Below are positions 15,640 to 27,849 of a DNA stretch of 33,497 nucleotides, piece by piece. Positions within the stretch are counted from its first letter, which is position 1. The number at the start of each line of letters is the position of its first letter. A model generated the notes under the pieces. It worked only from the letters and a program-made list of their open reading frames with translations. It was not told where the DNA came from and did no database searches. Made by a program: the position numbers and the translations under genes. Origin of the DNA: a virus; the IMG/VR virus record IMGVR_UViG_3300046171_000074, positions 1 through 33,497 of that record. One strand, written 5' to 3'.

Positions 15640-16133
15640 GTTATACATTTACAGAAGTAAACACTTTTCCAATAGATTCTACATTTGATTCTTTATATGC
15701 AGACAGTCTTGCAGATTTAGAAAGTGGAACAGTAGTATTTGATAGTGGATTTACAGCAGATGAAAAGAAAGCAAGAATAATAAAATTAATGAATGGGCAA
15801 AACTACCATGATATGAAAAATATTATTATAGCTAAAGATGAAACTATTTGTATGTATGTTCAAGGAAAGTATGTAGATAATACTTACACATGGGCAAATG
15901 CTTTAGTAGGCAGAATAAACAATAGTAAAGCATGGACATGGTCATCTGAATTTCATGAAGCAAACAAAGAGTGGATTCAATCATTAGGTGGTACTAAGTT
16001 TGCATTAGAGTGCATTAAAGATTCTAGAATTGATACCTACTTTACTGCTGGAACAAATGCTGGAGTGTTTTTAGGTACGCTTACTACAGAACACTTAGAT
16101 GATAATATGAAAAAAATGACATGGGAGTATTAA
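15636..16133 (+). CDS. Unknown protein after the fibre genes
   Basis: The protein has 165 residues, with no family I can name firmly. It has no signal or membrane segment. Its second half (ALVGRINNSKAWTWSSEFHEANKEWIQSLGG, then KFALECIKDSRIDTYF) alternates strands and helices in a way that could fit an acetyltransferase-like fold, but no binding motif is clear. It starts in ATGA overlap with the adhesin-like gene and overlaps the first desaturase by 13 bases. A fibre assembly or modification role is possible. Confidence 0.6.
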   Translation: MSYTFTEVNTFPIDSTFDSLYADSLADLESGTVVFDSGFTADEKKARIIKLMNGQNYHDMKNIIIAKDETICMYVQGKYVDNTYTWANALVGRINNSKAWTWSSEFHEANKEWIQSLGGTKFALECIKDSRIDTYFTAGTNAGVFLGTLTTEHLDDNMKKMTWEY

Positions 16134-16852
16134 CAGGTCTTTATTGGTTTTTCTTAGCAACAGTTCCTTACTGTTTGTATGTTTTAACATGGGAACAATT
16201 ATTAATATCTTATATTATGTTTTGGTTTTTGGGTGATTGTATACATGGATTATTCTTACATAGATATGCAGCACATAAATTATGGAATCCACCAGTCTGG
16301 TTACAAAATGTACTAACAATGTTTTCTGTAGGTAGTCTTACAGGAACACCAATAACATGGAGTGCTTGGCATAGAACTCATCATCACTATGCAGATACAC
16401 CTAAAGATCCTCATAGCCCTAGATATTGTTCAGTACCTTACATGATATTTATGAGCTATTACCACTATGCTGAACCTAAAAGATGCATAGATTTATTTAG
16501 AAATAAGTTTGTAGCTCATGTAACTAAGCATATAGGAATCTATGCTTTATCTATTAACTTGATATTGTTGTCGTTACTAGGTTTAGACATGTACTTATAT
16601 CTCTGGTTATTGCCAAGTGCTATGACTAATGCTATTACGAATTATGGGATTAACGTAATGTGCCATCAAGAAGATGGAATCAAGAATAGACCTATACTTT
16701 ATCCTTTGATATTTAATGAAACACACCACAAAAATCACCATATCAAACCGCAACTTAGATATTATAATTTTGATATTTGGGTTTCTCTTATAACTTTGTT
16801 AGGATGGACTAATGAAAGAAGCAAGAAAGATACAGCTATTAGCATTACTTAA
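16121..16852 (+). CDS. Fatty acid desaturase 1 (membrane di-iron, acyl-CoA or acyl-lipid type)
   Basis: The protein has 243 residues with all three histidine boxes of membrane desaturases: HRYAAH (47-52), HRTHHH (84-89, followed by DPHSP) and THHKNHH (201-207). Hydrophobic segments lie near 6-45, 60-80 and 137-175, so it should span the membrane with the di-iron site on the cytoplasmic side. It would insert a double bond into a fatty acyl chain using O2 and two electrons from a host donor such as ferredoxin; no donor gene is here. It is shorter than usual bacterial enzymes (about 300). It overlaps the next desaturase by 41 bases. Confidence 0.88.
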   Translation: MGVLTGLYWFFLATVPYCLYVLTWEQLLISYIMFWFLGDCIHGLFLHRYAAHKLWNPPVWLQNVLTMFSVGSLTGTPITWSAWHRTHHHYADTPKDPHSPRYCSVPYMIFMSYYHYAEPKRCIDLFRNKFVAHVTKHIGIYALSINLILLSLLGLDMYLYLWLLPSAMTNAITNYGINVMCHQEDGIKNRPILYPLIFNETHHKNHHIKPQLRYYNFDIWVSLITLLGWTNERSKKDTAISIT

Positions 16853-17558
16853 TACAATAATAGCTATTACAGGTTCAATAATGTTTCCTGAATATATTAT
16901 CTATGGGGTTGTTGCATGGTTTTTTGTCATGATATTTAGTGTCAATATTGCAATGCATAGGTTTGTATCTCATAGATCATTTGAAACTACACCATTTAAA
17001 ACAAAATTATTAAAATATTTATCAATACCATGTGCATTTGGTAGTCCTCTATCATGGACAGCTATGCATAGATATCATCACAAACATAGTGGCGGTCCTA
17101 AAGATAACGAGGCACCTCACAATATTGGTTATGTTAGAGCATGGCTTACATTATATGATCCTATAACTGTGCCTAAAACTATGGTAAAAGATATATTGCA
17201 AGATAAAGATTACATGTTTATTACGCGTAACTATTGGAAGATGTTACTAGGTTATGCTTTTATACTATATTTAATAAACCCAATTCTAGGTATATTTGCA
17301 TTTAGTTTTCCCGCAGCTTGTTGTTATCAGGCAGCTGGAGCATTTGCAGTCATACCTCATTCTAAAAAATTTGGTGGATATCTAGTAGTAGAACAAAGGA
17401 ATCATGATACATCTTACAATAGTATACTAGCTAGTTTATTATCATGGGGTGAGGGTTGGCATAACTATCATCACACTAAGTCAAAGGACTATAGACATGG
17501 ACACAAATGGTGGGAGTTAGATCCTCCTGCATTTTTTATAGAGAGAATATTTAAATGA
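16812..17558 (+). CDS. Fatty acid desaturase 2 (membrane di-iron)
   Basis: The protein has 248 residues. The boxes are HRFVSH (49-54), HRYHHKHS (86-92) and EGWHNYHH (214-221), all intact, with hydrophobic segments near 8-45, 65-82 and 145-180. The WHNYHH box and compact size are those of the delta-9-type desaturase family, and it clearly differs in sequence from its upstream neighbour, so this is not a recent duplication. The substrate cannot be told from sequence. It lies between fibre and holin-like genes, in the late unit. Its stop overlaps the next small gene in ATGA. Confidence 0.88.
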   Translation: MKEARKIQLLALLNTIIAITGSIMFPEYIIYGVVAWFFVMIFSVNIAMHRFVSHRSFETTPFKTKLLKYLSIPCAFGSPLSWTAMHRYHHKHSGGPKDNEAPHNIGYVRAWLTLYDPITVPKTMVKDILQDKDYMFITRNYWKMLLGYAFILYLINPILGIFAFSFPAACCYQAAGAFAVIPHSKKFGGYLVVEQRNHDTSYNSILASLLSWGEGWHNYHHTKSKDYRHGHKWWELDPPAFFIERIFK

Positions 17559-21236: not shown

Positions 21237-21542
21237 CTAAAACTTAGTCCAATCGACATTCATCCCCGATTGGTTTTCCCATTCCTGAAGTAATTCTTCT
21301 TCTGAAATATTGTAAGTTCTTTCAAACCCTTTTCGTCCTAGACCATGATAACCCTCATGAGTTCTATGATGCTTGACGCATAAAGGCACACAACGTATCC
21401 CCCTTTGGGCGATGCCCTGTCCGCTTCTTAGGTGGTGTATTTCAGTGTGTGTTGTTTGTTTTTGTCCTAGTGTTTTACAGAGGATACAGCCATCTTCCTT
21501 TTGGCTTTCATATATCCTCTGCATTTCTTTTTTCTTATTCAT
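21237..21542 (-). CDS. Ref-like HNH nuclease (RecA-dependent nuclease family)
   Basis: The protein has 101 residues. The core reads CILC, then TEIHHLRSGQGIAQRG, CVPLCVKHHRTHEGYHG and KGFERTY. The two Cys-x-x-Cys-type pairs with the HH and KHHR motifs form an HNH metal site as in the C-terminal domain of phage P1 Ref, which cuts DNA at RecA filaments. It is the last gene of the recombination block and overlaps its upstream neighbour by eight bases. DNA cleavage is well supported; RecA dependence follows from the family only. Confidence 0.75.
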   Translation of the reverse strand: MNKKKEMQRIYESQKEDGCILCKTLGQKQTTHTEIHHLRSGQGIAQRGIRCVPLCVKHHRTHEGYHGLGRKGFERTYNISEEELLQEWENQSGMNVDWTKF

Positions 21543-21732
21543 TTACCAAACAAATCTTTTTGTTTTTCTTTGAAATAAGATCATTTTTAATCAAAGCATC
21601 AACTACTTTCCAGGCATGTGACCTACTAGATAACTTACAATGTTCAGTTATTTCCTTGTAGGTTGGGCTATAGCCACTGATATTGATATATCTTTTGATG
21701 TAGTTAAACACTTCTGTTTGTTGCCTAGTCAT
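21535..21732 (-). CDS. LexA-type winged-helix DNA-binding protein
   Basis: The protein has 65 residues. TRQQTEVFNYIKRYINISGYSPTYKEI, then LSSRSHAWKVVDALIKNDLI, match the LexA N-terminal winged helix in length and pattern, with no protease domain. It probably binds DNA as a regulator. Its place between SSB and the HNH nuclease suggests control of the early operon or a recombination accessory. It starts in TAATG overlap with the SSB gene. Confidence 0.7.
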   Translation of the reverse strand: MTRQQTEVFNYIKRYINISGYSPTYKEITEHCKLSSRSHAWKVVDALIKNDLISKKNKKICLVNE

Positions 21733-26660: not shown

Positions 26661-27011
26661 TTACTCAGCCATAGCTTGTAATGCTTGTTCTGCATCAGAT
26701 ATGCTCTGTTTTCTAGGATACTTATCCTCTATAAACTTTGAACATAAAGCCATAGCATGATAATCTTCTCTAGCTTCATTGAATTGCATAATGGCATCAT
26801 TTGCAATCTCAACTCTAGAGTCAGATTGAGCAACCTTATTACGATTTACACTCTGGCTAAATAGTCTGCCAATACTTCTAATCAATTGGTCTCTCTTAGA
26901 CGTCTGTGCAAACTTCTTAGTTTTGACATTCAAGATGCCACTGCATGAAGTATTGGCTAAGTTCTCAGCCATTATCAAAAGTTTCTTTGCTTTATTTTCT
27001 ACATTTTTCAT
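26661..27011 (-). CDS. First leftward gene, unknown early protein
   Basis: The protein has 116 residues, basic in the middle and mostly helical (KNVENKAKKLLIMAENLANT, then KKFAQTSKRDQLIRSIGRLF). No family is recognised. AGGAG precedes the ATG. It is the gene closest to the leftward promoter-like element and is followed by a strong terminator, so it can be transcribed alone, at high level and early. That fits a host-takeover or regulatory protein, which is inference. Confidence 0.65.
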   Translation of the reverse strand: MKNVENKAKKLLIMAENLANTSCSGILNVKTKKFAQTSKRDQLIRSIGRLFSQSVNRNKVAQSDSRVEIANDAIMQFNEAREDYHAMALCSKFIEDKYPRKQSISDAEQALQAMAE

Positions 27012-27057
27012 AGTTATCTCCTGTGGACGAAGCCACGATTATTAAACAAAAACAAGA

Positions 27058-27092
27058 GTAATATATATACTCTATGACCGCCCCGAGCATTA
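27058..27092 (-). promoter_or_regulatory. Leftward promoter-like element (early genes)
   Basis: The minus strand reads TAATGCT (27092-27086), 11 bases, then TAGAGTATATATATTAC (27074-27058), ending 46 bases before the first leftward start. The 17-base part is identical to the rightward element; TATATATATT would serve as the -10 region. Confidence 0.6.
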
Positions 27093-27216
27093 ACAAATCA
27101 TCAGAACAGAGAAGCACAGGTATCTATACATTTAGTTTATCTACATTGCATAAAGGATGTACGGAGTAGAATAGTATTGCCACACACAAGAGCAGTCTTT
27201 TGTAATGTGGATAAAC

Positions 27217-27252
27217 TAATGCTACAACAGCGTCTTAGAGTATATATATTAC
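27217..27252 (+). promoter_or_regulatory. Rightward promoter-like element (terminase and late genes)
   Basis: TAATGCT (27217-27223), 12 bases, then TAGAGTATATATATTAC (27236-27252) on the plus strand, an exact copy of the leftward element in the opposite direction. It is followed by a structured leader of about 215 bases before the small terminase gene. Confidence 0.6.
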
Positions 27253-27256
27253 ACCA

Positions 27257-27273
27257 CAGCGACAAAGTCGCTG
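27257..27273. other. 7-bp hairpin in the rightward leader
   Basis: CAGCGAC (27257-27263) and GTCGCTG (27267-27273) pair around AAA, with two further C-G pairs outside one mismatch. No T-run follows, so it is a structural or binding site, not a simple terminator. Confidence 0.55.
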
Positions 27274-27282
27274 GGGTAACAC

Positions 27283-27329
27283 GGTCAAGGGACACGCAAC
27301 AAAGGATTACAACAGTGTGTCACTTGACC
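27283..27329. repeat. 15-base imperfect inverted repeat with GGTCAAG ends
   Basis: GGTCAAGGGACACGC (27283-27297) is complementary to GTGTGTCACTTGACC (27315-27329) at 13 of 15 positions, with a 17-base loop. A related arm, TTGGTTCTTGGTCAA at 27427-27441, is complementary to 27324-27337 apart from one added base. The repeated GGTCAA core suggests protein-binding sites or alternative RNA folds. Confidence 0.55.
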
Positions 27330-27429
27330 AAGACCAATAATCAAATTACTATTTGCTTACCAGTAAACACAAAAAGAGTATTAAGGTTTTGGGGTGCAGA
27401 CCTTTTCTCTTAAAAGGGATGCTGACTTG

Positions 27430-27449
27430 GTTCTTGGTCAATCAAGAAC
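27430..27449. other. Hairpin just before the small terminase start
   Basis: GTTCTTG (27430-27436) pairs with CAAGAAC (27443-27449) around a 6-base loop, 20 bases before the ATG. It competes with pairing to 27324-27337, so the leader may switch between folds. Confidence 0.45.
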
Positions 27450-27468
27450 AGTATGTTATAAAGATTAT

Positions 27469-27849
27469 ATGAAGAAGACCTCAGCATTAGCTGTAGATAT
27501 AAACCCTAAAGCAAAGATACTTGTAGATACTTTAGTATCCACTGGTTGCACTATTAAAGAGGCATCTAAAGTGGCAGGATATAAAGGTAATTCAGCTAGG
27601 GTAAGTGCCTCCAAGATGCTACAGAAACCAGAAGTACAGAAGTACATGATGCAGAGGATTAATCAAACACTAGGATTATCTTCAGCTAAGGCTGTTCATA
27701 AGTTAATGTCTCTGTCCTCAGGGGCTAAGTCAGAGTACGTACAGCTTGAAGCTTCCAAAGACATACTAGATAGGGCAGGATTCAAAGCTCCAGACAAACA
27801 CCAGCACCTGGTAGCAGGAGACTTTAAGGTAACTATAGACTTGGGGTAG
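27469..27849 (+). CDS. Small terminase subunit
   Basis: I take ATG at 27469 (126 residues); the frame is open from 27394 but the extra codons fall in structured leader. Residues CTIKEASKVAGYKGNSARVSA (about 27-47) form the helix-turn-helix of small terminases, followed by KMLQKPEVQKYM and a helical oligomerisation region, ending in TIDLG. It binds the packaging site and hands DNA to the large subunit. A clear ribosome site is missing. It is the first gene of the rightward unit. Confidence 0.75.
   Translation: MKKTSALAVDINPKAKILVDTLVSTGCTIKEASKVAGYKGNSARVSASKMLQKPEVQKYMMQRINQTLGLSSAKAVHKLMSLSSGAKSEYVQLEASKDILDRAGFKAPDKHQHLVAGDFKVTIDLG

Follow-up and report, generated by a model that had tools for sequence, protein, structure and literature searches.

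Promoters read by a phage polymerase of the T7 type are short identical elements placed before transcription units. The junction described here differs from them: no phage RNA polymerase was found, only two copies of the element are present, and the element is not conserved beyond the nearest relatives. Divergent sigma70 promoters that separate the early unit of a phage from its late unit share with this locus back-to-back units, an intergenic control region, and the host polymerase as the only one apparent. Here, however, the two control regions are inverted copies of each other, nearly identical, and in relatives the ribosome site and the start of the early gene are part of the copy. Imperfect inverted arms that match within a genome are also known from quasipalindromes homogenized by template switching (PMC8604942, PMC7202029), but the arms here reach ~210 nt, carry many small bulges, and occur at one locus clade-wide, and spacer inversion was not seen.

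The window, a 33,497-nucleotide stretch covering IMG/VR record IMGVR_UViG_3300046171_000074, amounts to a podovirus-like genome that is nearly complete. Its large terminase shares 82% identity with that of the cultured Pelagibacter phage EXVC031P Hodr, with the next records at ~43%, and from the Hodr match we infer a SAR11 host. Compared with Hodr, ~1.2 kb between the portal and scaffold genes is apparently missing at the record ends (33497 / 1). The early unit runs leftward from 27.0 to 21.2 kb and encodes small genes, a RecE-like exonuclease, SSB, a LexA-N-like helix-turn-helix (HTH) protein (21535 to 21732), and HNH; it points away from the rightward unit, which opens with terS. Two neighboring fatty acid desaturase genes lie at 16121 to 17558, among structural and lysis-side genes. 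A protein search with the first early gene matched only one near-identical contig. Features of the junction, with comparisons to the related contigs L004 and L005, are as follows.

26661 to 27011, minus strand: first early gene, 116 aa, no family; an unrelated gene takes its place in L004/L005
27017 to 27022, minus strand: Shine-Dalgarno AGGAGA of the first early gene, as read from the sequence
27058 to 27074, minus strand: left copy of TAGAGTATATATATTAC, with an AT-rich −10-like stretch (TATATA/TATATT), 46 nt before the first early gene
27058 to 27153, minus strand: left arm of the imperfect inverted duplication, by gapped alignment; ~42 nt longer than the right arm
27086 to 27092, minus strand: TAATGCT, 11 nt upstream of the left copy
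27198 to 27252, plus strand: right arm of the imperfect inverted duplication, by gapped alignment of the inverted pairs
27217 to 27223, plus strand: TAATGCT, 12 nt upstream of the right copy
27236 to 27252, plus strand: right copy of the 17-mer, 216 nt ahead of the terS start codon
27283 to 27329, plus strand: 13-nt inverted repeat GGTCAAGGGACAC/GTGTCACTTGACC, overlapping the TTGACC −35; identical in L004/L005
27324 to 27352, plus strand: sigma70-like promoter TTGACC-N17-TACTAT, also present in L004/L005, there 6 nt ahead of the terS ATG
27434 to 27462, plus strand: sigma70-like promoter TTGGTC-N17-TATAAA with an extended −10 that ends 6 nt before the terS ATG; score not above shuffles
27469 to 27849, plus strand: terS, terminase small subunit, ATG at 27469 (Pfam Terminase_2, 6e-9; PHROG terS)

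The 17-mer TAGAGTATATATATTAC occurs exactly twice in the 33.5-kb record, in opposite orientations, with no further copy within 2 mismatches elsewhere in the record. Together with a shared GTC, the copies form an ungapped 21-nt inverted repeat with 1 mismatch, and the 17-mer is not itself a dyad. In 300 dinucleotide shuffles of the whole window, no 16-mer or 17-mer recurred exactly in inverted orientation within 300 bp. The original prediction of two exact copies facing apart, placed divergently between two units, each with TAATGCT 11 to 12 nt upstream (12 nt on the plus strand, 11 nt on the minus strand) and a common GTC, was correct in position, strand, and spacing. It had also stated that no phage RNA polymerase is visible, and this agreed with our scan: no window protein scanned matched an RNA polymerase, a cognate single-subunit enzyme included, or a sigma factor, no unassigned reading frame in the window is large enough for a polymerase, and the ~1.2 kb apparently missing from the record is too short for a single-subunit enzyme. 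The element is also present in two copies only, rather than in the many copies of one consensus per genome typical of phage RNA polymerases. The largest window protein, a virion protein of 1,319 aa, matches an internal virion protein with an endolysin domain. An N4-like hairpin promoter with a virion polymerase was rejected, as this protein does not match a polymerase and L004/L005 have not retained the hairpin that follows the right copy. SAR11 has sigma70 and sigma32 as its only sigma factors (PMC13198564), and the candidate promoters are likely read by host RNA polymerase carrying sigma70.

Searching the genome and relatives for the motif, as had been proposed, found the exact 17-mer in 12 IMG/VR stretches, with the pair only in L004, L005, and L008, at the same locus; the remaining single matches lie in unrelated contexts. 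When other pieces of the core served as queries in three further searches, the same three contigs were returned, so that every contig found with the core keeps both copies, and L004/L005 conserve ~320 bp of core despite a different first early gene. Elsewhere the element was absent: no 17-mer within 3 mismatches was found in the 500 bp upstream of terS in other terS relatives, and blastn of the region against a phage collection gave no match. The comparison of the motif with its flanks came out neutral. Both 17-mers are intact in the three relatives, but they are not clearly more conserved than the 60 to 90 nt around them; because only three genomes are available and most of the flanks are unchanged too, a special constraint on the 17-mers cannot be shown.

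Both copies contain a −10 hexamer near TATAAT (TATATT at 5/6 or TATATA at 4/6), but neither has a −35 near TTGACA at 16 to 18 nt that exceeds 3/6 (TTAATG at the left copy matches at most 3/6), and a sigma70 scan of 26900 to 27600 listed neither. Across relatives, the 100 bp ahead of terS show a strong excess of canonical sigma70 promoters on the plus strand (20, compared with 0.5 expected), an excess absent on the minus strand. Because sigma70-like promoters lie nearer to terS, the right 17-mer is neither the sole nor the nearest candidate for that unit. The promoter reading of the original prediction thus stands in part: divergent placement, and a left copy 46 nt before an ATG preceded by AGGAGA, favor it, while poor −35s and the nearer terS promoters do not. 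"Promoter-like" is reasonable for the left copy, by position the best early promoter candidate in this sequence despite its weak −35, and unproven for the right.

Several other features of the terS side were observed. The 13-nt inverted repeat is a candidate operator or hairpin. The window has ~110 nt more before terS than L004/L005, and the extra segment, 27360 to 27468, resembles the terS-proximal segment of L055 (GGTTTTGGGGTG.AGACCTTTT); it likely reflects recombination of a promoter module. In several relatives (L004, L005, L053, L056, L036, and L046), as in the window (27457 to 27471), 6 nt separate the end of the terS −10 from the ATG, and a Shine-Dalgarno sequence was found in only 3 of 50 terS genes. 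This spacing and the scarcity of Shine-Dalgarno sequences suggest a leaderless terS mRNA.

Like the terS-proximal sigma70-like promoters, a second inverted pair (27132 to 27153 and 27198 to 27219), nested inside the first and collinear with it, was absent from the original prediction. Gap-tolerant alignment joins both pairs into one collinear duplication in which the 17-mers are the longest unbroken stretch. Its score exceeded 300 composition shuffles in all three genomes (60 versus at most 55, 67 versus 63, and 78 versus 52), although outside the 17-mer the match is unconvincing. Similarity in the window group covers only ~55 nt of promoter-proximal sequence, and the single-strand fold of the window arms has a z score of −5.7. 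The left arm stands in front of the first early gene, as far off as a promoter would be, and the right arm is its mirror image facing terS.

This arrangement extends well beyond the window group. Among 49 nonredundant relatives in which 600 nt or more was available ahead of terS, each compared with 50 shuffles, inverted similarity at the early-gene/terS junction was above all 50 shuffles in 39, leaving ~10 without a detectable pair; an earlier scan of 500 nt upstream of terS found inverted similarity in 38 of 50. Scanned lengthwise, 9 of 10 genomes or contig stretches had the junction as their top-scoring inverted site, the exception (L062) having no clear pair. In the window, too, the junction is the only locus with such a pair. 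Arm sequences are unrelated between groups of relatives, and the first early genes fall into ~29 unrelated clusters; because these genes are unrelated between groups, the matching of arms is not inherited sequence. By these comparisons, most genomes of the clade have their own matching pair at this one place. In Hodr, arms of 214 and 205 nt align with 176 matches, 5 substitutions, and 29 small indels, scoring 136 compared with 18 ± 2 in shuffles. Beginning in the leader, the left arm crosses the ribosome site and takes in ~45 codons of the first early gene, whereas the terS promoter TTGACA-N17-TATACT falls within the right arm. The two arms fold as one long bulged hairpin (−117 versus −44 ± 4.5 kcal/mol, z −16). 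No description of a clade-wide mirror-image junction or hairpin was found in the literature searched, a search limited in extent. Nine of 80 contigs (L015, L025, L028, L037, L040, L045, L047, L060, and L070) begin within ~210 nt upstream of terS, perhaps at assembly breaks in the inverted repeat or at physical genome ends. L033 and L036 have a GC-rich hairpin between the arms in common despite different arms, which suggests modular exchange inside the junction.

Arms at the junction match within a genome and differ between genomes, as expected of a quasipalindrome kept matched by template switching. In per-genome alignments, ~78% of left-arm differences were mirrored in the right arm (1,705 of 2,185), a figure inflated by local realignment. 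A covariation test on a fixed multiple alignment of six Hodr-like genomes, with the structure predicted from, and so favored by, the same alignment, gave 146 predicted pairs, 92.8% of them paired. Two-sided changes occurred in 28 of the 146 pairs, compared with 8.9 ± 2.3 in shuffles (0 of 500) and 4 to 9 in slid registers. Close relatives had two-sided and one-sided arm changes mixed, many of them one-sided. Indel positions common to the four closest Hodr-like genomes made up 55 to 72%, compared with 25 to 31% in shifted controls. Mirrored changes together with shared indel positions indicate that pairing is kept up in part and that the bulges are inherited. A known effect of template switching is to homogenize the arms of inverted repeats (PMC8604942); arm matching could come from this process or from selection for pairing, and the data do not separate the two. 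An invertible promoter segment was rejected, the spacer being inverted in 0 of 42 comparable pairs. So was an RNA pairing signature: mismatches compatible with G-U pairing on the plus strand were commoner (103 versus 34), but transversions showed the same bias, which points to base composition.

With about even confidence, we regard the 17-mers as the core that has stayed unbroken within an imperfect duplication, in inverted orientation, of the control region of the early gene. Early transcription by host polymerase carrying sigma70 would begin at the left copy, in its TATATATAT stretch; a mirror start at the right copy would matter less, or not at all, to the terS unit, which would be served by its own sigma70 promoter adjoining its start codon. 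The copies would stay identical through arm matching, by polymerase template switching between hairpin arms, selection for pairing, or both, rather than through one phage polymerase demanding one consensus. Against this reading, the ~55-nt similarity in the window group is explained as well by selection on two functional promoters, neither 17-mer has a −35 above 3/6, near relatives show many one-sided changes, and wholesale recopying would erase the bulge positions shared by Hodr-like genomes.

The step from an exact pair to a dedicated promoter, made in the original prediction, did not survive the clade-wide comparison. Arms match throughout the clade while group sequences are entirely different, and since matched arms are the rule at the junction whatever the sequence, identity is expected without a common polymerase and does not point to a dedicated common reader. 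A version without a phage polymerase, in which both 17-mers are −10 regions for host sigma70, perhaps with a phage activator at TAATGCT, and the early and terS units start together, is possible but falls well short of probable. Position, orientation, the nearly equal distance to TAATGCT, and the AT-rich −10-like core fit it, as do the intact copies in three related contigs, two of them with a different adjacent early gene; the right copy, however, lies 216 nt from terS with sigma70-like promoters between, the −35s are poor with no sigma70-scan match, and the elements are absent from all other relatives. That the 17-mers are operators for one phage regulator silencing or activating both units is improbable: the symmetry of the copies, the further inverted repeat overlapping the TTGACC −35, and the LexA-N-like HTH protein of the early unit would suit an operator, but the 17-mer is not a dyad, and homology in relatives extends through the ribosome site and coding sequence, far beyond what an operator needs. 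Chance similarity of AT-rich sequence can be practically dismissed. The 17-mer is TA-rich and has single IMG/VR matches in unrelated contexts, but 0 of 300 shuffles produced such a pair, L004, L005, and L008 keep it, and a second pair is collinear with it.

Rather unlikely, too, is a functional nucleic-acid structure in which the inverted arms form a hairpin or cruciform with a role in initiating replication, in packaging, or in controlling the first early gene, and in which the 17-mer is the best-paired stem. The huge bulged Hodr hairpin, covariation with retained bulges, an architecture kept while sequence changes, and the presence of only one such site in most genomes scanned all argue for it. 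Against it, transcription from the inferred promoters begins between the arms, which would leave a normal transcript with a single arm; by our reading of the mismatch matrix there is no wobble excess once composition is considered; and ~10 of 49 relatives have no detectable pair. A DnaA-dependent origin was rejected, as TTATNCACA boxes were not enriched (3 in 48 regions versus ~1.4 expected), and no known RNA family in Rfam matched the junction.

How early and late transcription proceeds on host polymerase alone in phages of SAR11 and its neighbors is poorly known, and the junction, common to a large marine clade that includes the cultured phage Hodr, is open to testing. The locus also carries a caution, in that two identical divergent elements need not mean a promoter consensus when arms match genome after genome. 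As a tentative proposal, with the chances rather against it, this marine pelagiphage-like clade may keep a long bulged hairpin between the first early gene and terS as a structure despite sequence change, its arms complementary and one of them carrying the terS promoter, acting as a switch made of nucleic acid, an origin, or a packaging element of a kind not yet described. Of more interest than the 17-mer motif is the junction itself, a mirror image with covarying arms that recurs across the clade.
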